Shown one piece after another: positions 5,573 to 16,677 of a DNA stretch of 63,444 nt. How positions within the stretch are numbered: position 1 is the stretch's first letter; each line of letters opens with the position of its first letter. Origin of the DNA: an uncultured Clostridia bacterium. GTDB taxonomy: Bacteria > Bacillota > Clostridia > Christensenellales > Pumilibacteraceae. Under the pieces are notes generated by a model that did not search any database, was not told the DNA's origin, and saw only the letters and a list, made by a program, of their open reading frames with translations. A program made the translations under genes and the position numbers. The stretch is taken from the NCBI GenBank assembly GCA_947066105.1, contig CAMSYM010000014.1, positions 1-63,444 of the forward strand, written 5' to 3'.

Positions 5573-7378
5573 ATGAAAAAAATCAGAGTAGCAATGCTCT
5601 TACTCGGCGCGGTTTTCGCGATCGGATCGACTTCGACGGCGCTATGCGCTTGCGGTCCGACCGGAAACAACGGCGGTACGGCAGAAGTCGTCTATCACTT
5701 GAATTACGGCGACGAAGCGGCAAGGACCGTCGAGATCCCCAACGGAACTGCCGCTCTCGATTGGAAAGCGCCGCGCGACGGGTTTAAGATCGAAGGCTGG
5801 TACACGGACAAAGATTGTAACAACGCTTACGATTTTTCCGCGCAGGTTACCGCAAAGCTCGATCTTTTTGCGAAGTGGACGGTTTACGAAGGCAAAGTAC
5901 CCGTAACGTTCGACTACAATTATCCGGGCTCGCGCTCGTCCTTTACGGTCAGTGTGGATAAATACGGAAAAGTCGCCGAAAGATATGCGCCTACCGCCGA
6001 AAAGGTAAACAGGCTCGGCATGAAGCTCGACGGTTGGTACAAGGATGCGGCGTGTACGCAAAAGTGGGATTTTGCCGTCGATACCGTCGAATCCGAAACG
6101 ACGCTTTACGCAGGTTACACCGCGAGTAACGCCATACCGCGCGATGCAAGCGGCAATATAATTTACGATAACGTGCAAGTCAACTTTTGGCTCGCGAATA
6201 ACGGCAAGGGTCAGGCGATTTTTTCCAAACTTGCCGACAAGTTCAACGAAGAATACGCCGGCAGGATACACGTCAATGCGACGGAAGCGTTGTTGGATCA
6301 AAACACCTATTCGGTCAGATTGCAATCCACGCCCGAAAAGAGTGTTAACGAAGGCACGTATTATTCCGTTTCGGATATATATGCTATGGCGGACATAGAC
6401 TATTCGCTCGACGACTGGTATGCGGGCGCTTTGCGTGACAGTTTGTATAAAGGCGCGTTGACCGCCGTTCCCATGCTCGCAAGCGTGCCGTATATCGTTT
6501 ACAACAAGGCGCTTATGCTAAAGTATAACGGCGACGCTCTGCCCGAAAACTACACCGAGCTTTCGACGGTATTGAAAAAGGCGTACGAAGGAGAAAAGGC
6601 GTCCAAGCCGAATTTCAAATCCATAATGACGAATACCGATTGGACATTTAAGGAAGCGCCGAGCAGCGTCGCGTTTTTGCAAAACGGCGCGGAATATTAC
6701 TCGTACAACGCCGACATCTCGATGTATGAATCTAAATGGTCGGATGCCGCCGTAAGGAGCGGTGCGTTGACGGGGCTTGAAAACATGTATAATTTGTTCG
6801 GCGCGAACGGCGACTGCCATGGCGGCACCGGCGACAAGTCGTCGTACGACGATCATACGCCCATAAACGCCGTAAAAGACGGCAACGCGCTTATGTGCGT
6901 CGTCAATTACATGTGCAGTAACGATCTGGTAAAAGGTAATTCGGCGCTCGGCGTCATGCCGCTTTCGGGATTATTCACCGATAACGACGACGCGGCGGCG
7001 GCGAGAATACCCATTCACACGTTCGGACTTGCGTTCTACAAGGCGGGCAAGGTGTCCGACGTACAGCTCGCGGCGGGCGCGGTTTTCGCCGATTATTGCA
7101 GCAGACATTCGGAGACTTTTACCGAGGAAGGTTGGTATCCGGTGCGTAAGTCCGCTGCCGACCCCGAAAAGTTTAATGAAACGTACAAAGGTATTTTGGA
7201 GAATGTCGGTGATCCGCAGAACTTTTATACTTACGACGGATATACCGGCGGCAAGCGCATCGTTAACAGTATTTGCGCGGAAAAATACATCGTTCCCATG
7301 CTCGCGGAAACAAACGTGGATTTCGCCCAAAAGTTGAACGAAATGGCTACGTCGATAAGTTTCGAAATCAATAATTAG
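5573..7378 (+). CDS. Sugar-binding lipoprotein with two InlB B-type repeats (ABC transporter)
   Basis: This 601-residue protein has a signal peptide with lipobox-like LCAC (Cys27). Two Listeria-Bacteroides (InlB B, Flg_new-type) repeats follow at about residues 42-105 and 110-185, each with the GWY.D..C...(Y/W)DF...V...LYA.(W/Y) pattern. From about residue 195 it becomes a family-1-type extracellular solute-binding protein (QVNFWLANNGKGQ..FSKLADKFNEEY). The binding lobe should deliver sugars to the permeases encoded at 10921-12884. The start follows GGGAGG. Fusing surface repeats to a transport binding protein is unusual; the repeats may lift the binding domain away from the membrane or bind wall or glycan. 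A second binding protein lies at 9457. Confidence 0.88.
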   Translation: MKKIRVAMLLLGAVFAIGSTSTALCACGPTGNNGGTAEVVYHLNYGDEAARTVEIPNGTAALDWKAPRDGFKIEGWYTDKDCNNAYDFSAQVTAKLDLFAKWTVYEGKVPVTFDYNYPGSRSSFTVSVDKYGKVAERYAPTAEKVNRLGMKLDGWYKDAACTQKWDFAVDTVESETTLYAGYTASNAIPRDASGNIIYDNVQVNFWLANNGKGQAIFSKLADKFNEEYAGRIHVNATEALLDQNTYSVRLQSTPEKSVNEGTYYSVSDIYAMADIDYSLDDWYAGALRDSLYKGALTAVPMLASVPYIVYNKALMLKYNGDALPENYTELSTVLKKAYEGEKASKPNFKSIMTNTDWTFKEAPSSVAFLQNGAEYYSYNADISMYESKWSDAAVRSGALTGLENMYNLFGANGDCHGGTGDKSSYDDHTPINAVKDGNALMCVVNYMCSNDLVKGNSALGVMPLSGLFTDNDDAAAARIPIHTFGLAFYKAGKVSDVQLAAGAVFADYCSRHSETFTEEGWYPVRKSAADPEKFNETYKGILENVGDPQNFYTYDGYTGGKRIVNSICAEKYIVPMLAETNVDFAQKLNEMATSISFEINN

Positions 7379-7389
7379 AGGAGAACACA

Positions 7390-9402
7390 ATGAAAAAATT
7401 ATTTTCTGTTACGGCAGGTATTATTTGCGCAAGCTGTCTTATGGGCGGAGTTATGCTCATGACGGGCTGCAACGACGGAACGAACGTCGAGCCGGACATG
7501 TCCGATAAGGGCAGTTGGACGGTAACGTCTCCCGACGGAAGCATAAAGTCGAAGATAGTTATGGATCATGCGGGCGAACTTTCGTATACGGTCGAAAAAG
7601 GCGAGCTTGCGGTTGTCGAAAAATCGGCGCTCGGCTTTACGATCGAGGAAGACGATTTCAGATTGCTTTCCGTAGAAGGCGTAAAGTCGCAAAGAGTGAC
7701 GGGCGAGTACGACAACATTACGGGCAAGCACAGTAAAGTGGCGTTCGATTGCAACGAAACGACGATAACGTTCAAGGGCTGGGCTTTCTATCTCGATCTG
7801 ACCATGCGCGCTTACGACGACGGTTATGCGTTTAGGTACGGCATACGCGCGGTCGACGAAAGCGAAGGCACGGTGACGGTATTGAGCGAGAATACCGAAT
7901 TCGCGCTTCCCGCCAACTCCACGCTTTGGGCTATGCCGTTTAGCGGTCTGTACGGACAAAACTTCTTTGCTTACGAAGAGCCGTATGTTAAAATGCGGTA
8001 CGACGATCTCGCGGGAAGCGATATTTCCATGCCCGTGCTGTATAAGCTCAAAGGTAGCGAAACATATTCGCTCATAACCGAATCGGGACTTATCGGCAGC
8101 GGCTTTTACGGATCGTTTTTGAGAGAGTCGGACGAAAACGCCGGCTCAGGTATTTTGCAGACCGTTCCCACGCCCGCGGGTTTTATGATCGACGACAACA
8201 AGATCGGTTATCCGTTTACTTCGCCGTGGAGAATGGGTATTACGGGCGATCTGGGTACGGTGATCGAAAGCGAGCTCGTGGAAAAGGTATACGACGATGC
8301 GGAGTATTGGAAGCCCGACGATTACGATACGCTTTCCGCCGCGGAAAAGGAGATATACGATTACGATTGGGTGGAACCCGGCGTTACGGCATGGAACTGG
8401 CTTATTTATCTCAATATATCGTCGCAACAAGATTATGCCATGCATAGGCGTTACGTCGATCTTGCGCATGAAATGGGATGGAAATATGTTATAGTGGACG
8501 GCGGCTGGAACTCGGGGCTTAACGTAGACGATTTTATCGACTTCGTCGCGGAGGCGAACGAAAAAGGCGTCAAGATAATCGTATGGTGCAATTCGTTCCC
8601 CGATTTCGGTTTCGGCAGGAAAGAGATTTTACAGCAGAAACTCGACCTGTGGAAAAGCTGGGGAGTATCTGGGATCAAGATAGATTTCTTCGACGGACAA
8701 AACTCCGAAAACCCCAAGTTCTACGGCGAAGATACGGGAACGATAAAGTGGTACGAAACCATTTATCAAGAATGCGCTAAGCGCAAAATGATAGTCAACT
8801 GTCACGGGTGCAATAAGCCTACCGGCGAAAGACGGGTGTATCCCAACGTTTTGAACAGAGAAGCGATACGCGGCAACGAAAACACGAATATCGACGCTAC
8901 CGTTCCGGTAAATCAACTGTTTACGCGCGCGATAGTGGGCCCGAGCGATTTTACTCCCGTCGTCAATCCGTTTACTACGGGCATGACGATGGCGCAAAAC
9001 ATGGCGCTTGCCGTACTGTTCGAATGCGGCACTCCTTCGATGGCGGATTTCGAAAAAACATACAGACATGAACAGGTAATAGATTTTTACAAGAACATTC
9101 CGTCACTGCGCGACGATACCAAATTCCTTTGCGGCGAGCTCGATTCCTATTATGTCGGCGCGGTGCGTTCGGGCGATAATTGGTTCGTAGGCGGCGTCAA
9201 TGCCATTCTCGACACAATGGCTACGGTGGATTTTTCCTTCCTTGACGCGGGAAAAACGTACGAAGCGGAAATTTTCGTAAACCATCCGACGGATAACAAA
9301 GTCGTTTTGAAAGTTATAAAAGACATTACGAGTACCGACAAAGAGATCATCGATATGTTCAAGAACGGCGGCTTCGCTATCCGTTTGACTCCTAAAAATT
9401 GA
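7390..9402 (+). CDS. GH97 glycosidase, lipoprotein (alpha-glucosidase/alpha-galactosidase family)
   Basis: This 670-residue protein has a signal peptide ending in lipobox MTGC (Cys27), so it should be anchored outside the cell. The N-terminal beta-super-sandwich carries the family hallmark SPDGS.KSKIVMDHAGELSY; the barrel has WVEPGVTAWNW, YVIVDGGWN and GIKIDFFDG; a C-terminal beta domain ends the protein. GH97 contains inverting members (SusB type, Glu base) and retaining members with an Asp nucleophile at the end of the fourth barrel strand. Asp432 in KIDFF fits the retaining, alpha-galactosidase-like group; this is inferred by pattern, not alignment. AGAGGAGA precedes the start. It sits between two binding lipoproteins, consistent with trimming glycans at the surface before import. 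Confidence 0.88.
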   Translation: MKKLFSVTAGIICASCLMGGVMLMTGCNDGTNVEPDMSDKGSWTVTSPDGSIKSKIVMDHAGELSYTVEKGELAVVEKSALGFTIEEDDFRLLSVEGVKSQRVTGEYDNITGKHSKVAFDCNETTITFKGWAFYLDLTMRAYDDGYAFRYGIRAVDESEGTVTVLSENTEFALPANSTLWAMPFSGLYGQNFFAYEEPYVKMRYDDLAGSDISMPVLYKLKGSETYSLITESGLIGSGFYGSFLRESDENAGSGILQTVPTPAGFMIDDNKIGYPFTSPWRMGITGDLGTVIESELVEKVYDDAEYWKPDDYDTLSAAEKEIYDYDWVEPGVTAWNWLIYLNISSQQDYAMHRRYVDLAHEMGWKYVIVDGGWNSGLNVDDFIDFVAEANEKGVKIIVWCNSFPDFGFGRKEILQQKLDLWKSWGVSGIKIDFFDGQNSENPKFYGEDTGTIKWYETIYQECAKRKMIVNCHGCNKPTGERRVYPNVLNREAIRGNENTNIDATVPVNQLFTRAIVGPSDFTPVVNPFTTGMTMAQNMALAVLFECGTPSMADFEKTYRHEQVIDFYKNIPSLRDDTKFLCGELDSYYVGAVRSGDNWFVGGVNAILDTMATVDFSFLDAGKTYEAEIFVNHPTDNKVVLKVIKDITSTDKEIIDMFKNGGFAIRLTPKN

Positions 9403-9456: not shown

Positions 9457-10902
9457 ATGAAAAAGAAAATTGCGGCAGTTTTAAGCGCGGTCATGGCTTT
9501 GACCGTCACCGCTCCGCTCGTTGCGTGCGGCGGCGGCAACGACGTGTTGAATCCGGACGGAACGTGGTGGAGCACAACGGGCGAGCTTCAAAAAGACGTC
9601 AACGGCGATATCGTGTTCGACGATGTGAGCATTCGCCTTACGACTATCGTCGGCGGCGTAGACAAAACCCCGTTCAGTCAGCTTATCGGACAGTTCAACG
9701 CCGAATACAACGGAAAAATAAATATAAAATTTTCGACGGTAGGCGAGACCGATTTCGAAAAGAACGTTACGCTCAAACTTACGCAGAATGCCAACGATGC
9801 GCCCGACATATTGATGTCGCACCAAAAATCCATAAAATCGTTTTTGGATTACCATGTGATTCAGCCGTACGATCTCGCTATGGAAGAAACGGGCGTAAAA
9901 ATAGATTTGTCGGGATTTGCGGCGGGCGTAAATCAATATTCCAAAGGCGGAACGGAATATAGCTTCGGCGTTCCCGTGGACGCCGCGAGCATGGTCGTTT
10001 ACTACAATAAAGAGATACTTGCCGAATACACCGATGAAGTGCCGCAGACACGAAGCGAGTTGATGGAAGTTTGCGCGGCGTATAAAGCCAAGGAAAACAG
10101 ATATCCGATTTCGTGGGAGACGAGCGGAGACTTCTTTGCCAAATACCTGATGCCTACCGCGGTATTGCAGAACGGCGGACACCTGTACAAAGACGATCTG
10201 TACGGCGATTGGTACGACGACACTACTCAGCGCGAGATTTACAAGAAAGCCATACAGTCGGTGCGTTCGTTTATAAATAACGGCTATGCCGCTCTCGGCG
10301 TGCACGAAATGTCCGGCGCGACCGATTTCTACCAAAGAAAAGCGTTGTTCTATGTGAGCATGCCGTGGTACCGTCCCAACATCGTCGACGCGTATTCGCA
10401 ACAAAATAAAGTGACCGTCGCGCAAGCGGAGGACATAATCGGCGGAATGAGCGTATCAGGTTGGTTTGCGATGGATAACGAAACTTCGGACACCGCCAAA
10501 AAGGTATACGGCGATTCGCACATGCTTACCATGACGAGAAAGGTGACCGACATCACGAAAAAAGCGGCGATATGCGAGTTTGTAAAGTGGTTTACGCAAC
10601 GCGGCGACGTCGGCGCGGCTTGGGCGGAAGCTGGACACGTTACTCTGTCCGATACGATAGCGAATTCGGATACATACAAAAACAACAAGTGCGTAAAAGA
10701 GTTGATAAACAATTGGTACCCGCATCTCGATGCGTTCACTACCATGGGCATCACGCCGTATTATATGGACGTATCGGATAATTTGAGCGCGCTTTTGTCC
10801 GAAGCCTTGATAGACGGAGACCCCGCAAAAGACGAAGAATTCATACGCGTAAAACAAAAGGCGCTCAATTCTCAGATCGATCTGTTGAAAGCGATGGAAT
10901 AA
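9457..10902 (+). CDS. Extracellular sugar-binding lipoprotein (ABC transporter)
   Basis: This 481-residue solute-binding protein of the family-1 sugar type has a signal peptide with lipobox LVAC (Cys24) and a mature lobe starting VSIRLTTIVGGVDKTPFSQLIGQFNAEY. It contains the typical YSFGVPVDAASMVVYYNKEIL and WYRPNIVDAY segments. It lies directly upstream of the two permease genes, 18 bases from the first, so it is probably the main binding subunit. It differs from the repeat-bearing binding protein at 5573, so one permease pair may be served by two receptors with different ligands. The start follows GTGAGGTGA. The 54-base gap before it contains only a weak ATCCG/CGGAT stem. Confidence 0.9.
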   Translation: MKKKIAAVLSAVMALTVTAPLVACGGGNDVLNPDGTWWSTTGELQKDVNGDIVFDDVSIRLTTIVGGVDKTPFSQLIGQFNAEYNGKINIKFSTVGETDFEKNVTLKLTQNANDAPDILMSHQKSIKSFLDYHVIQPYDLAMEETGVKIDLSGFAAGVNQYSKGGTEYSFGVPVDAASMVVYYNKEILAEYTDEVPQTRSELMEVCAAYKAKENRYPISWETSGDFFAKYLMPTAVLQNGGHLYKDDLYGDWYDDTTQREIYKKAIQSVRSFINNGYAALGVHEMSGATDFYQRKALFYVSMPWYRPNIVDAYSQQNKVTVAQAEDIIGGMSVSGWFAMDNETSDTAKKVYGDSHMLTMTRKVTDITKKAAICEFVKWFTQRGDVGAAWAEAGHVTLSDTIANSDTYKNNKCVKELINNWYPHLDAFTTMGITPYYMDVSDNLSALLSEALIDGDPAKDEEFIRVKQKALNSQIDLLKAME

Positions 10903-10920: not shown

Positions 10921-11955
10921 ATGAAAGCTTTTGAAGAAAGCGTCAGAGACGAGAATATGCTCGCGCGCCGCCGACAAAGAGTAAAAGAACAGATTTCGGC
11001 TTGGGCGTTGCTGTCGCCGTTCATAATAATTCTGGTGCTGTTTTCGGTAGTGCCGTTTGTTATGGGGTTCGTGTACGTGTTTTTGCGTTACGATCCGTAC
11101 GACGTAGGCGCGACGCAGTTCTACGGATTAAAGAATTTCGAAATGCTGTTCAACGGCGATATATCGATGTCCCAAAGCTTTTGGGAATCGTTCGGGCCGG
11201 TCACGGTGTACGCGCTTTGCACGTTCCCGATAGGCACGATAATATCGTTTGTTTTGGCGTACTTCATAAACATGCGTCCGCCCGGCTACAAATTTTTCAG
11301 AGCGTGCATATATTTGCCGAGCCTTGTATCCATTTCGATCGCAGGTATAATATTCTGTAACTTTTTCGGACCGAAAGGCTCGGGACTCATCAATTCGCTG
11401 TTCGGTACGGACATCGATTGGTTGGGCGGCAAGCCGTTTCAGGACGACTTCCTGCGCTGGGTAATAATACTTCTATTGTGTATATGGGGCGGCGTCGGCG
11501 GCAACTTCGTCATTTATGCGGGCGTATTGAACGATATACCCAAATCGTTGTACGAAGCGTGCGAAATGGACGGCGGCGGCAGGTGGCGGCAAATATTGCA
11601 CGTCACGCTTCCCTGCATGAAGTCCACGCTGTCTCTTACCATGTTCGGCACGGTGGTGGGAATGTTGAGCTTATACGGTCAGCCGTACGTATTGAACACG
11701 ATAGAGAACAAAGACATTTTGGTAAGCCCTATGATGTGGATACAAAAATATCTTATGGGCGGACTGACTTATGCAAAGCTTACGGGATTTATTTGCGCGG
11801 CGGCGTTGGTACTCGGCATAATCTCGGCGGCGCTGGGATTCATACAGCGCAAAGTCATGGCGGACAGACGTCCCGGCGCAAAATACTGTGCGGAATATGC
11901 GCGGTATGCCGAGCTTAAAGCGCAAAGCGCCGATTATAAAGGAGGCGCAGACTGA
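10921..11955 (+). CDS. Sugar ABC transporter permease, MalF/UgpA type
   Basis: This 344-residue protein has about six transmembrane helices, the first at about residues 28-50 (WALLSPFIIILVLFSVVPFV). The EAA coupling loop reads YEACEMDGGGRWRQILHVTLP, which would dock on the ATPase. The last helix is followed by a polar tail. The start is preceded by AGGAGAAGGGG. The stop and the next start share one base (TGATG). Together with the next permease it forms the heterodimeric channel for oligosaccharides delivered by the upstream binding proteins. Confidence 0.93.
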   Translation: MKAFEESVRDENMLARRRQRVKEQISAWALLSPFIIILVLFSVVPFVMGFVYVFLRYDPYDVGATQFYGLKNFEMLFNGDISMSQSFWESFGPVTVYALCTFPIGTIISFVLAYFINMRPPGYKFFRACIYLPSLVSISIAGIIFCNFFGPKGSGLINSLFGTDIDWLGGKPFQDDFLRWVIILLLCIWGGVGGNFVIYAGVLNDIPKSLYEACEMDGGGRWRQILHVTLPCMKSTLSLTMFGTVVGMLSLYGQPYVLNTIENKDILVSPMMWIQKYLMGGLTYAKLTGFICAAALVLGIISAALGFIQRKVMADRRPGAKYCAEYARYAELKAQSADYKGGAD

Positions 11956-12884
11956 TGCAAGACGCGAAAATCAAAAAGCGGCTTACGAAGTCGCAACTCA
12001 CGACGCGACGCGAAAAGATAGTTTCGTTTATCGTACTCGCGATAGCCGCGCTGATATTTGTATTTCCGCTTATTTACATGGTGGGAACGTCGTTTAAGTC
12101 CGATCTGGACCTTCAAATGCACCCCGAAAATATTTTTCCGACCCCCGGTCAGTGGACGATCAAACATTACACAGGCTTTTTCATCAATGGCGACGGACAG
12201 CTCGACAACATGCCCAAATGGATGTTCAACTCGCTGTGGAGCACCGCGCTTACTTGCGGCTTAACGGTTTTGATCGACCTTGTGGTCGCGTACGTCGTAG
12301 TGTTTCTGCGGTGGAAGGGCAAGCAGGTGTTTATGAAATCGCTGTTCGCTTGGATGGCGGCGCCGACGGTTATAGCCACCGCGCCGGGGCTTGCGCTTTT
12401 TCAAACGGTCAAAACCGCGCTCGGCGTAAATAACTTCGCGTCGACCTATGCGCTCGTATATTTTTGGCTGACGATTCCCGGTATCGTTGGTGTATTCAAC
12501 GTAATACTGATGTACAACTTTTTCAAAACGATACCGATAGACATAATAGAAAGCGCAAAAAGCGACGGCGCGAGCCACTTCAAGATATTTTTAAAGATAG
12601 TCTGTCCGCTCGCAAAATCCACGATGTTGGTAATAGTGCTGTTCACCTTTGCCGCGTCATGGAACAATCTGCAAGGTCCGCAGCTGTTGATGGCAGGCGA
12701 AGGTCAGGCGATACAGACGATCACCGTCGCGCTTGCCGAAAGCTACGGCGGAAGCTCGGCATGGGGCGCGCAGGGCGTGTCTATGGCGACGGCGTTGTTC
12801 TCGCTTATACCGGTACTTATAATATTCATATTCACTCAAAACAGAATGATCGAAGGGCTTGCGTCCACAGGAGTAAAGAGATGA
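11955..12884 (+). CDS. Sugar ABC transporter permease, MalG/UgpE type
   Basis: This 309-residue protein has six predicted transmembrane helices, the first at about residues 23-44 (IVSFIVLAIAALIFVFPLIY). The coupling loop IIESAKSDGASHFKIFLKIVCPL and the C-terminal ending IEGLASTGVKR are typical of MalG-type subunits. GGAGG in the 3' end of the upstream gene serves as its ribosome site. Its stop overlaps the ATPase start by four bases (ATGA). It pairs with the upstream MalF-type subunit in CUT1-family carbohydrate import. Confidence 0.94.
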   Translation: MQDAKIKKRLTKSQLTTRREKIVSFIVLAIAALIFVFPLIYMVGTSFKSDLDLQMHPENIFPTPGQWTIKHYTGFFINGDGQLDNMPKWMFNSLWSTALTCGLTVLIDLVVAYVVVFLRWKGKQVFMKSLFAWMAAPTVIATAPGLALFQTVKTALGVNNFASTYALVYFWLTIPGIVGVFNVILMYNFFKTIPIDIIESAKSDGASHFKIFLKIVCPLAKSTMLVIVLFTFAASWNNLQGPQLLMAGEGQAIQTITVALAESYGGSSAWGAQGVSMATALFSLIPVLIIFIFTQNRMIEGLASTGVKR

Positions 12885-14665
12885 TCACGGAAAACGAAAA
12901 CATTGTAAACGATAAAGATACTTTTTTATCTTTGCGCCATCTCGTAAAGGTATATCCCAACGGCGAAAAAGCGGTGTACGATTTTGATCTCGAAATCGCC
13001 AAAAACGAGTTTATAGTTATCGTCGGACCGTCGGGTTGCGGCAAGTCTACGACGCTTCGCATGGTCGCGGGGCTGGAAGACATAACCGACGGCGACGTTT
13101 ATCTGCAAAACGATCTGCTCAACTATAAGCCGTGCAAAGACAGGAAAATGGCGATAGTCTTTCAAAGCTACGCGCTGTATCCGCAGATGAACGTGTATCA
13201 AAACATCGCGTTCCCGCTCACCATAAACAAATATCCCGCGCCCGTTGTAAACGAAACGCTGTTATCAGTCGCGCAAGTAAAAAAACTGCTCGAAAGCATA
13301 GGCATCGAAAGGATAGCGAAAGCGATCTTTTCGCAACATTCCAAAAGAATGAAGCGGAAAACGCTTGTCGAAGAGCTTGCGGTGCTTCTCGATATCGAGC
13401 CTTGTTCGTCCAAACTGCTCGTCGGGCTGTTCAGGTCGCTCGACGCCGCGACCAAGAACGAAATAGCGGTCAAAAAAGACGTTGTTTTGTCCGAATGGCT
13501 TAAAAAGCTTGACGAAAAAGAAGCGGCGGAACGGACGAAGCTTCAAGAGAGCGGCGTAAAACTCAACGAAAAGTTTCACGTTCTCAACGACGACGGCACG
13601 GAAAAGATCGTTTCGAGAAAGCTTACGCGTTTCGAAATAAGAACGAGAGTATACGAAACGGCAGACAAGCTCGATCTTACGCCATATCTCGACAAACTGC
13701 CCAAAGAGCTTTCGGGCGGACAAATGCAGCGCGTCGCGCTCGGCAGAGCCATCATCAAAAACGTACCCGTATTTTTGATGGACGAACCGTTATCCAATCT
13801 CGACGCCAAGCTTCGTCTGACCATGCGTAGCGAGATAGTCAAACTGCATAACCGAATAAACGCCACCACCATTTACGTAACTCACGATCAAGTGGAAGCT
13901 ATGACGATGGCTACGCGCATAGTGGTAATGAGCCGCGGTTTCGTGCAACAGATAGGCACTCCCGAAGAGATATACGGCGATCCCGTAAACGTGTTCGTAG
14001 CCCGCTTTATCGGGTCCCCGTCGATGAACGTTTTCGAAATGGAATACGACAAGAGCAAAAACGCGTATACGTACGGCGGATTCGATATCCCCGCGAGCAA
14101 AAGCTTCAAGGCGAAGTACGAATCGTTTTATGCCGAAAAATGCGCCGAATTCGAGCAAATTAACGCTAATTTCGATTTGACGGCGCGCGAAAAGATATTG
14201 AAGGTTTTGTCCGTTCTCGGCGAAAACAAGGTCAAAGCGCAGACCGCGAAAAAAAGCAATCTCATTACGCGCACGGTAAATTTCTTTAAGAGCATCGCCA
14301 AGAAAAAAGAAAAGGAAAAAGAAGACGTTTGGGAAAAGGAAAGGACGGTAGCCAAAGAAAAGCTCGAACAGTTGCGTTCGCGCACGGAAAAAGGCGACAA
14401 AGTGCTTATCGGTATTCGCCCCGAACGGTTGGAGATCGAAAAGGCGGAAGCGGGCAAAAAATACGACGGGTACTATGTAGTCGAGCCGACTTTGACCGAG
14501 CTTTTGGGCGGCGAATACAGCGTGCATTTCGAGTTTTGCGGAAGAAACACCGTAGGCAAGCTCGACGCCAAATACAAGCTCAAAGCGGGCGACAAGATAG
14601 CCGTTAAATTTTCCGCCGCCGACCTGTATGTGTTCGATCCCGTTACGGGAGACGTTATCAAGTGA
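12881..14665 (+). CDS. Sugar ABC transporter ATPase, MsmX/UgpC type, with two large insertions
   Basis: This 594-residue ATPase should energise the adjacent permeases. All catalytic motifs are intact: Walker A GPSGCGKST (49-57), Q-loop Gln95, signature LSGGQ (277-281), Walker B LMDEP (Asp301-Glu302) and H-loop His335. The family is normally about 360-380 residues. Here roughly 130 extra residues lie between the Q-loop and signature, where only about 50 residues normally occur, and about 100 extra residues, including a Lys/Glu-rich coiled segment (KKKEKEKEDVWEKE), lie in the C-terminal regulatory domain before VLIGIRPERL (from 508). The frame is open upstream to 12464, but the ATG at 12881, overlapping the permease stop, gives the family N-terminus. 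The first insertion falls in the helical subdomain facing the permease, so it could alter coupling or bind a regulator; that is inference. Confidence 0.93.
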   Translation: MITENENIVNDKDTFLSLRHLVKVYPNGEKAVYDFDLEIAKNEFIVIVGPSGCGKSTTLRMVAGLEDITDGDVYLQNDLLNYKPCKDRKMAIVFQSYALYPQMNVYQNIAFPLTINKYPAPVVNETLLSVAQVKKLLESIGIERIAKAIFSQHSKRMKRKTLVEELAVLLDIEPCSSKLLVGLFRSLDAATKNEIAVKKDVVLSEWLKKLDEKEAAERTKLQESGVKLNEKFHVLNDDGTEKIVSRKLTRFEIRTRVYETADKLDLTPYLDKLPKELSGGQMQRVALGRAIIKNVPVFLMDEPLSNLDAKLRLTMRSEIVKLHNRINATTIYVTHDQVEAMTMATRIVVMSRGFVQQIGTPEEIYGDPVNVFVARFIGSPSMNVFEMEYDKSKNAYTYGGFDIPASKSFKAKYESFYAEKCAEFEQINANFDLTAREKILKVLSVLGENKVKAQTAKKSNLITRTVNFFKSIAKKKEKEKEDVWEKERTVAKEKLEQLRSRTEKGDKVLIGIRPERLEIEKAEAGKKYDGYYVVEPTLTELLGGEYSVHFEFCGRNTVGKLDAKYKLKAGDKIAVKFSAADLYVFDPVTGDVIK

Positions 14666-16677
14666 TCATGGGAAATAAACGAATTTTACCCGCATATCCG
14701 CTATTCGTAAAAGATCCGAATTTTTCGTTATGGAGCGTTACCGACGAGCTGAACGCAAGCAACGTGCGCAGTTGGTGGGGCGAAGAAAAAAAGATTTACG
14801 GATTTATCAAAACGGGCGGAAAGACGTACTGCTTTTTGGGCGACTGCGCGGATCTTGCAGGTTGCGGCGTATTGCGTGCGGAACAGACTTCGCTCGGCGT
14901 TACGGCGTTTTCTACGGACTACGAGTTTAAAGCGGGCGATATAAAGCTCAAAGTCAAGTTCGTATCGCCGTTGCCGCCCGACGACTTCGAAACGCTGTCC
15001 ATGCCCGTGTGTTATATGGAGTTCGAGATAGCGGGCGACGCGCAAGCCGAGATATCGATTTTCGTAAACCGCGCCGTATCCTTTAATACCGCACTCGAAC
15101 CGAATGCCAAAACGCGCGGCGCGGTCATGGCGCGCGACGGCTTCGAGAGCGCGTTTATCGGCAGAAAACGTCAGTTGTATCTTTCCAATAACGGTGACGA
15201 AATGGGCGCGGATTGGGGCTGGTGGTATCTTGCGGGCAAGCAAGCGTTTTACGCGGACGAGCGCGATATGGCGGCGTATCTTGCGGGCGGCTTGAAAAAC
15301 TTTACTGCGTCGGGCGACGAATGTTATATCTGCGCGTTCGACGAGTCGAAAACGGGTATTTTCGCGCTCGGATACGACGACGTTGTTGCGATAGATTATT
15401 ACGGCGATTTCCGCAAAGGATACTATTTGCAAAACCGCACGATCGTAGACGCGCTCGAAACCGTTTGGCACGGTCACAAAGAGATAGACAAGCGCCTTGC
15501 CGCTTTCGACGACGAGCTTAAAAAGCGCGCCGAGCCGTTCGGCAAGCGGTATCTCGACGTTTTGTATGCCTCTTTAAGGCAAAGCGTAGCCGCGCACAAG
15601 CTCGTTGCCGATAGTAACGGAAACGCGCTGTTTCTTTCCAAGGAATGCGGATCGAACGGCTGTATCGCCACGGTAGACGTAAGCTATCCGTCCATGCCGC
15701 TGTATCTTTTGTACAATACCGAGGCGATAAAAGGTATGATGCGCCCCATTTTCGAGTTTGCGCGAATGCCTGCGTGGGTATACGATTTCGCTCCGCACGA
15801 CGCGGGAACGTATCCGCACTGTTGCGGCAACGTATACGGGCTTAATTCGGCAAAGGAAAAATGCATTGGAACGCTTGCAAAGCCGCGAGACGGCGCGGAC
15901 ACGCATTATCCCTTTTACTTGTTACCGCCGAACGAGCGTTTATACGATCCGAAGTATCAGATGTCGGTCGAAGAATGCGCCAACATGCTCATCATGCAAT
16001 ATGCGTGTTACCGTAAAGATCATGGCATTGCGTTTTTCGCCGAAAATGCCGATCTTGCGGAAAAGTGGGTGGCGTATCTGGTCGAATACGGTTTGAGACC
16101 GGAAGAGCAGCTTTGCACGGACGATTTTGCGGGACATCTCAAAAACAATTTGAATCTTGCTATAAAAGCGACCGTCGGCATAGGGTGCTACGCCGAATTG
16201 CTGAAAGCGGCGAATAAAGGCGCGCCAAGCAAAAGCTTTCGAAATACGGCGGAACGCTTCGCAAACGAAATCGTCGCTTTTTCCGAAAAGTTTTCGCACA
16301 TGCCCATAACGTGGGACGCGGACGACAAAACTTTCTCGTTAAAGTACAATTTGGCGTTCGATAAGATATTGGATCTCGGCTTATTCCCGAGATCGCTTGC
16401 GGAAAGCGAAGTAGACTTTTATTTAAGCATAGCCGACAAATTCGGAACGCCGCTGGACAACCGCGAGCGGTATACGAAATCGGACTGGCTGATGTGGGCG
16501 GCGGCGCTTACCGACGATATCGAAAAGAAAAAGAAAATGGTTTCGTTCGTCGACGATTTTCTTAAAGAGTCGCCCGACCGCGTGCCGTTTTCCGACTGGT
16601 ATTACACCGATAGCGGAAAACACGAACAGTTTGTAGCGCGTTCCGTTCAAGGCGGGTGCTTTATATTGCTGTTATAG
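14662..16677 (+). CDS. GtaA-like protein (DUF4964/DUF5127/DUF4965/DUF1793 family)
   Basis: This 671-residue protein has no signal peptide. The N-terminus (PLFVKDPNFSLWSVTDELN..RSWWGEEKKIYGFIK) matches the DUF4964 opening of glutaminase-A-like proteins. The second half (from about residue 290: RYLDVLYASLRQSVAAHKLVADSNGNALFLSKECGSNGCIATVDVSYPS) matches the six-hairpin DUF4965/DUF1793 region. The family was named from a fungal glutaminase, but its fold is glycosidase-like, so in this operon a glycan role is plausible; that is inference. The start is GTG overlapping the ATPase stop, with GGGAG ten bases upstream; an ATG two codons later (14668) is the alternative. The protein ends with SVQGGCFILLL, a family-typical C-terminus. 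Confidence 0.82.
   Translation: MIMGNKRILPAYPLFVKDPNFSLWSVTDELNASNVRSWWGEEKKIYGFIKTGGKTYCFLGDCADLAGCGVLRAEQTSLGVTAFSTDYEFKAGDIKLKVKFVSPLPPDDFETLSMPVCYMEFEIAGDAQAEISIFVNRAVSFNTALEPNAKTRGAVMARDGFESAFIGRKRQLYLSNNGDEMGADWGWWYLAGKQAFYADERDMAAYLAGGLKNFTASGDECYICAFDESKTGIFALGYDDVVAIDYYGDFRKGYYLQNRTIVDALETVWHGHKEIDKRLAAFDDELKKRAEPFGKRYLDVLYASLRQSVAAHKLVADSNGNALFLSKECGSNGCIATVDVSYPSMPLYLLYNTEAIKGMMRPIFEFARMPAWVYDFAPHDAGTYPHCCGNVYGLNSAKEKCIGTLAKPRDGADTHYPFYLLPPNERLYDPKYQMSVEECANMLIMQYACYRKDHGIAFFAENADLAEKWVAYLVEYGLRPEEQLCTDDFAGHLKNNLNLAIKATVGIGCYAELLKAANKGAPSKSFRNTAERFANEIVAFSEKFSHMPITWDADDKTFSLKYNLAFDKILDLGLFPRSLAESEVDFYLSIADKFGTPLDNRERYTKSDWLMWAAALTDDIEKKKKMVSFVDDFLKESPDRVPFSDWYYTDSGKHEQFVARSVQGGCFILLL

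Follow-up and report, generated by a model that had tools for sequence, protein, structure and literature searches.

The window analysed here, a stretch of 63,444 nucleotides, encodes an ATPase that its motifs and domain matches identify as an importer ATPase of the MsmX/MalK type, enlarged by two insertions: one of ∼120 residues in its NBD, and one that adds ∼80–100 residues in its OB/TOBE regulatory domain. Our best guess for the NBD insert is a regulatory or partner-binding surface; we give even odds to its being an accessory module, for regulation or for docking of a partner, on an importer ATPase encoded in an operon. The original prediction was that the insert had no described counterpart. 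This held for print, in that a literature search found no description of the insert in the portions of open-licence PMC papers that it covered, but not for sequences: the insert is known from 25 loci, in two lineages of ATPases.

The ATPase gene (12881..14665, + strand, 594 aa) extends beyond the interval 13160..14410 to which it had first been assigned, and its ATG overlaps the TGA of the gene for the upstream permease B. Its translation contains the catalytic motifs intact, as had been predicted: Walker A (GPSGCGKST, residues 49–57, 13025..13051), the Q-loop glutamine Q95 (13163..13165, also placed by alignment), the ABC signature LSGGQ (residues 277–281, 13709..13723), Walker B/DEP (residues 298–303, 13772..13789), SNLD (residues 305–308) and the H-loop histidine H335 (13883..13885), all on the + strand. 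These motifs, together with a match to ABC_tran (PF00005) of 96.7 bits against a cut-off of 25, are those of a CUT1 ATPase. In the regulatory domain we found FVARFIGSP (residues 372–380), GIRPE (511–515) and ELLG (540–543), instances of the CUT1 regulatory-domain motifs FVAxFIGSP, GxRPE and ExxG as given in an excerpt of PMC8603345. OB_MalK (PF17912) matched with 29.6 bits (cut-off 27), and TOBE_2 with 19.8 bits, slightly below its cut-off of 21. The best NCBIfam match of the whole ATPase was to UgpC (NF008653) at 391.7 bits, below the curated cut-off of 432 bits; a profile cut-off can thus miss insert-bearing members of this kind.

The anomaly was first noticed as a distance of about 183 residues between Q-loop and signature, against a usual 53; we count 182 against 52. 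In a survey of 46 related ORFs recognised by a motif script, many of them from the same genus and the window ORF included, the spacing was 52 in 36, and ranged from 56 to 193 in the remaining ten, the window's among them. The distance from the signature to the end of the protein was 318 in the window ATPase, compared with 218–236 in the conventional ATPases L033, L034, L035, L037 and L101, an excess of 82–100 residues that agrees with the roughly 100 originally predicted. A frameshift or assembly error is ruled out, since genomes G016, G017 and G030 carry the insert in a single frame; because these full-length relatives are 56–58% identical to the window ATPase, the insert is not the product of a frameshift or of chance. 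Absence of the insertions from all close homologues had been named as the observation that would count against the original prediction; the NBD insert is present in these three, and homologues of more than 550 residues exist.

MsmX of B. subtilis (6yir) is the best PDB match of the window ATPase. The profile alignment to it breaks at profile position 120 and restarts at position 242 with no MsmX residue omitted, and therefore the insert lies in the alpha3–alpha4 loop of the helical subdomain, the subdomain to which it had been ascribed. By this alignment and by pLDDT block means, the insert domain occupies residues ∼119–246 (13235..13618, + strand). The additional claim that the site contacts the permease coupling helices was too strong. 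An excerpt of PMC7658222 places MsmX R104 in the alpha3–alpha4 loop and E110 in alpha4, and puts MsmX residues of this set outside the TMD interface.

Structure prediction of the ATPase alone, with four sequences as input to AlphaFold, gave a poor model overall (mean pLDDT 55.1, pTM 0.38, most of the core <50) but a locally confident insert, with pLDDT block means of 70–91 over residues 121–240. These high values may reflect helices that are sound locally, and not a tertiary fold that can be relied on. Helices were predicted at residues 125–139, 142–153, 159–169, 174–185, 189–193 and 199–224, and strands at 118–121, 233–235 and 243–246, so that the predicted insert consists of helices, one of them long, and a beta-hairpin. 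The hairpin part spans residues 225–247 (13553..13621, + strand) and has a hairpin-like remnant in L200 and L202; the middle helices have a predicted helix-turn-helix look. Two insert pieces, the window's and that of L166, matched no Pfam or NCBIfam model above cut-off. Weak matches below cut-off had E values of 0.0084 and 0.0028 for the L166 insert; for the window insert there were none and one of 0.23. PDB sequence searches with insert profiles returned weak matches alone (best E 0.33 with profile A1 and 0.022 with A3), and in the PDB alignments the 6yir and 7x0q chains had no counterpart of the insert.

Counting matches whose protein or insert was read, the full insert occurs at 25 loci, spread over 23 genomes and 8 families. 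Full-length insert-bearing relatives (E ≤ 1e-60) were found in 4 of 74 genomes of the family, namely the window's own (G000), G016, G017 and G030, and the insert in 3 of 20 genomes of the genus (G000, G016 and G017), both counts including incomplete genomes. Wider profile searches (E ≤ 0.001, own genome counted) yielded 9 of 396 genomes of the order with four sequences and 6 of 391 genomes of the class; with 12 sequences they yielded 14 of 391 in the class, 15 of 372 in the order, and 2 of 348 in the phylum, the last two being the window's genome and another from the same class. Several further matches stand outside the 25: L153, L154 and L156, where a script found no MalK-type frame; L186 (E 9e-4), which was left unread; L185/L193 (G589), a 398-aa frame where the match covers only the last 43 profile positions; and L200–L203, which have a hairpin-like stretch only. 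The distribution of the insert is sporadic.

The 25 loci fall into two groups. Clade A comprises eight loci (the window and those in G016, G017, G030, G277, G324, G163 and G135) and groups with conventional MsmX-type ATPases; clade B comprises 17 loci in a distant ATPase group. A tree built from 51 NBD cores after removal of the insert included 8 rows from A and 10 from B. Clade A formed a single branch (98/95) close to conventional ATPases such as L033, L034 and L101, clade B formed another (100/100), and proteins free of the insert lay between the two. A grouping of A with B into one clade was rejected on this tree (p-AU 0.0098, for a group named after the tree had been seen).

The inserts themselves nonetheless match each other. 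With flanks trimmed, hhalign aligned the A and B inserts at probability 95.9, E 5.5e-9 and score 52.6, whereas control scores peaked at 20.6 in 100 column shuffles and at 17.5 in 77 real control windows, the latter drawn from alignments of the neighbouring SBP, permease, kinase, regulator and second SBP. An earlier comparison with fewer sequences had scored 53.7, where 60 shuffles gave no more than 23.7, and the insert without its hairpin scored 24.6 (probability 30), where 100 shuffles gave no more than 15.2. Compared pairwise, A and B inserts are just 11–24% identical, and homology therefore rests on the profiles. On that footing the A and B inserts are homologous, occupy the same alpha3–alpha4 site and belong to one insert domain as defined by profile A3. 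In clade A, L184 (L191 locus, G135:C25) combines an A-type core and GH97 operon with an insert that matched the B profile (probability 91, E 1e-6) and did not match the six close clade A members (probability 0.24), whereas the L152 insert matched the six A members at probability 81 versus 37 for B. Both are long branches in the insert tree. This pattern hints either at exchange between the lineages or at two acquisitions within A; L184 is itself a possible case of domain exchange.

Upstream of the window ATPase, on the same + strand, lie genes for a GH97 glycoside hydrolase (7390..9402), a solute-binding protein (SBP_bac_1, 9457..10902) and two BPD_transp_1 permease subunits, A (10921..11955) and B (11955..12884), each with an EAA-type motif found by pattern; an SBP and two such permeases constitute the operon of a CUT1 importer. 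Gene neighbourhoods of the homologues, a check put forward with the original prediction, show permeases beside the ATPase throughout. All eight clade A loci have both permeases immediately upstream of the ATPase, and the full order GH97–SBP–PermA–PermB–ATPase is found in six (the window, L132, L133, L162, L163 and L191); in the other two the contig ends at the SBP (L131) or ∼400 bases before PermA (L164). In clade B a fused permease (∼605–635 aa, with 9–13 TM segments by a crude hydropathy count) adjoins the ATPase in all 17 insert-bearing loci and an L166-like SBP is present in 16 of them; adding two hairpin-only loci and one partial locus, whose permease frame is short (385 aa), brings these counts to 20/20 and 19/20. 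A kinase, response regulator and second SBP are present in 8 of the 20 clade B loci: L166–L170, L187, L188 and L192 have a second SBP, histidine kinase, response regulator, SBP, fused permease and ATPase together. No extra gene beside the ATPase was found to be common to the clade A and B loci. The operon position suggests a dedicated ATPase, and the window ATPase serves a GH97-linked importer, probably for oligosaccharides; GH97 enzymes act on alpha-gluco- and alpha-galacto-oligosaccharides.

Two other genes of the window may be noted. Directly after the ATPase gene, 14662–16677 encodes a glutaminase-A-like protein (GtaA_6_Hairpin, DUF5127, DUF4964), and the seven other clade A loci had no listed match to it next to the ATPase. 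Window positions 5573–7375 encode a protein of 600 aa that matches the Listeria-Bacteroides repeat (PF09479) twice and whose relative in L132 (40% identical) also matches the operon SBP at 23%.

A quick 61-row tree places L200 and L202 within clade B, yet they have the hairpin-like stretch alone, with a Q-to-signature spacing of 76. At these loci the SBPs are 64 and 61% identical to L166's, and the fused permeases 64 and 65%; L208 and L209, which belong to the same family and carry the insert, have corresponding values of 60 and 63% (SBP) and 65 and 67% (permease). The helical part was apparently lost in L200 and L202. Because they keep the same kinds of permease and SBP, coupling with the clade B kind of fused permease apparently does not require the helical part. 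The alpha3–alpha4 loop has been elaborated in other proteins as well. Short hairpin-like inserts occur there in L003 and L140, and also in L201 and L203, which are MsmX-type and PotA-type proteins, respectively. The MalK-type L024 (G018:C83) and L025 (G019:C4) have a charged coiled insert of ∼119 residues at the same loop; a common origin of these with the NBD insert is unsupported (hhalign probability 0.4 and 0.2).

The NBD insert is the fast-evolving part of the ATPase. By codon comparison of the window with G016, G017, G030 and G277, identity was 23–31% in the insert versus 83–86% in the NBD core. In a separate comparison that took in some flank, inserts of the family were 32–36% identical. 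Insert dN was 2–11 times core dN in 12 of 13 pairs, all except G461–G610; synonymous sites were near saturation in most of the 13, and insert dS was <1 in three only. In the few usable pairs the insert dN/dS was well below 1: 0.29 for G563–G701 (core 0.03), 0.21 for G563–G749 (core 0.06), and 0 for G461–G610 (dS 0.10, no amino-acid change; core also 0).

The regulatory-domain insert (residues ∼405–507, 14093..14401, + strand) is lysine-rich and partly predicted to be helical. A long regulatory region is also found in L026–L028, the nearest relatives free of the NBD insert, so that in clade A the regulatory-domain insert may have come first and the NBD insert later. Conversely, the clade B proteins L196, L197, L204 and L205 have the NBD insert without a long regulatory-domain insert. 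Strict coupling of the two inserts is rejected, each having been seen without the other. More extreme C-terminal regions were also noted. The signature-to-end distance was 512–620 in 18 of the 46 survey ORFs; L164 (G163:C194:2415-4715), a 767-aa protein with the NBD insert, has a far larger regulatory region (signature-to-end 486); and L002/L139 (G000:C1:55911-56993) and same-genus ORFs have ordinary Q-to-signature spacing and ∼300 extra C-terminal residues that by eye resemble further OB/TOBE-type repeats. The MalK paralogue group L029–L032 has a cationic amphipathic stretch near the C-terminus, which we take to resemble membrane-targeting helices.

Other readings of the NBD insert must be weighed. 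It could be a specificity element that tailors the ATPase to its cognate permease pair, barring cross-energising or replacement by other ATPases of the cell. We think this improbable: homologous inserts serve a two-chain pair in clade A and a fused permease in clade B alike, L206/L207 lack the helical part while their permeases are 64–65% identical to L166's, and the EAA motifs of the window permeases look ordinary against the consensus. According to the excerpt of PMC7658222, the loop residues of MsmX lie off the TMD interface; the same text can be read in favour of specificity, in that R104 of this loop and E110 matter for energising (the effect of the R104A/E110A double mutant is cumulative relative to the single mutants), and in that MsmX works with multiple transporters, unlike the insert-bearing ATPases, whose genes sit beside their permeases at every locus of both clades. 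The insert could also be an ornament, tolerated at a permissive surface loop and kept by drift without a function of its own. Its fast evolution (the excess of dN in the insert also fits a loosely constrained ornament), its sporadic distribution, its apparent loss in L200/L202 and the other elaborations of the loop, coiled in L024/L025 and hairpin-like in L003, L140, L201 and L203, are what such an ornament might display. We nevertheless hold it unlikely: dN/dS is well under 1 in the few pairs that can be used, the insert has persisted in two lineages and in 23 genomes from 8 families, and its prediction from four sequences was locally confident.

A very unlikely reading is that the ATPase senses the membrane or ionic strength, its lysine-rich regulatory helix, perhaps with the NBD insert, binding anionic lipid and gating the motor in the manner of the cationic HTH of OpuA, the precedent described in an excerpt of PMC10710835. 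The regulatory-domain insert does contain a candidate cationic amphipathic helix at residues 461–478 (14261..14314, + strand). The best D was 2.11 in the window, 2.11–3.02 in seven of the eight clade A proteins and 2.28–2.55 in the C-terminal tails of four paralogues, all above the 99th percentile of background single 18-mers (1.76; the 99.9th is 2.22), although comparing region maxima with single background windows flatters these scores. Of 12 segments, seven surpassed shuffles of their own sequence (p < 0.05). The candidate helix of the window has a D no better than its own-segment shuffles (p 0.61), and a helical moment with p 0.031. L152 (1.39) and four of five clade B proteins tested scored low, L002 reached 2.17 with neither insert, and the four clade B proteins named above have the NBD insert without the long regulatory-domain insert. 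We keep membrane binding by the lysine-rich stretch as a lead only.

We return to the reading of the NBD insert as an accessory regulatory or docking module, to which we give an even chance. It draws on the spacing of 182 versus 52, homologues at 56–58% identity, the 25 loci, the insert pLDDT, the A–B profile match, the dN/dS values, the operon setting, the apparent loss and the precedents below; the excess of dN in the insert, the sporadic spread, the poor whole model and the mismatch of the L184 insert with the six close A members count against it. Such a protein would have an accessory domain inserted in the alpha3–alpha4 loop and a second, charged helical insert in the OB/TOBE domain. The first would project from the signature-carrying subdomain and ride on a region of the NBD that is mobile during the ATP cycle. 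By binding there, a cytosolic partner, a ligand or the membrane surface could slow or permit closure of the NBD, a mode of control that we liken to other plug-in controls in ABC importers. This regulatory or docking interpretation is suggested by analogy, because UvrA, the ABCF Arm and the OpuA NBD host partner or control sites at such places. For the insert we found no ligand, ligand motif, partner gene or known fold. A bolder version, tentative and in our judgement doubtful, is that an undescribed plug-in domain has passed as a unit between two ATPase lineages that are far apart, into the same helical-subdomain loop, gating importers with quite different permeases on a cytosolic signal and being losable to leave a hairpin.

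Among known systems, ABCF proteins have an Arm positioned after the Q-loop; they differ from the window ATPase in being translation factors with two NBDs. The Arm is internal to the ABC domain, charged, variable and independently lost in Uup lineages, and in EttA it contacts the L1 stalk (PMC6723617, in part). UvrA is alike in having insertion domains in an ABC signature domain, its signature domain I holding those for UvrB binding and DNA binding (excerpt of PMC6486640), and differs in that it works in DNA repair, has two ATPase sites in each monomer and is not a transporter. With the MsmX/MalK/UgpC proteins (PDB 6yir, 1q12) the window ATPase shares the catalytic motifs and the OB/TOBE regulatory domain with FVAxFIGSP, GIRPE and ExxG, and differs by 130 extra residues between Q-loop and signature and ∼80–100 in the regulatory domain. 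Its gene also sits beside its permeases, in contrast to MsmX, which in the excerpt of PMC7658222 energises several transporters. Control of ABC importers takes several forms in the text of PMC10710835 that we draw on: OpuA has controls via additional sequence in the NBD, differing from our case in its cationic HTH and tandem CBS domains; the maltose transporter is inhibited by EIIAGlc bound to MalK; and the controls of MetN and ModC are C-terminal domains. A domain in the helical subdomain, between ATP site and permease, contrasts with the C-terminal controls of MetN and ModC, and the natural siblings, which lack the helical part and retain a permease of the same kind, would make it possible to compare directly how that part of the motor is controlled.
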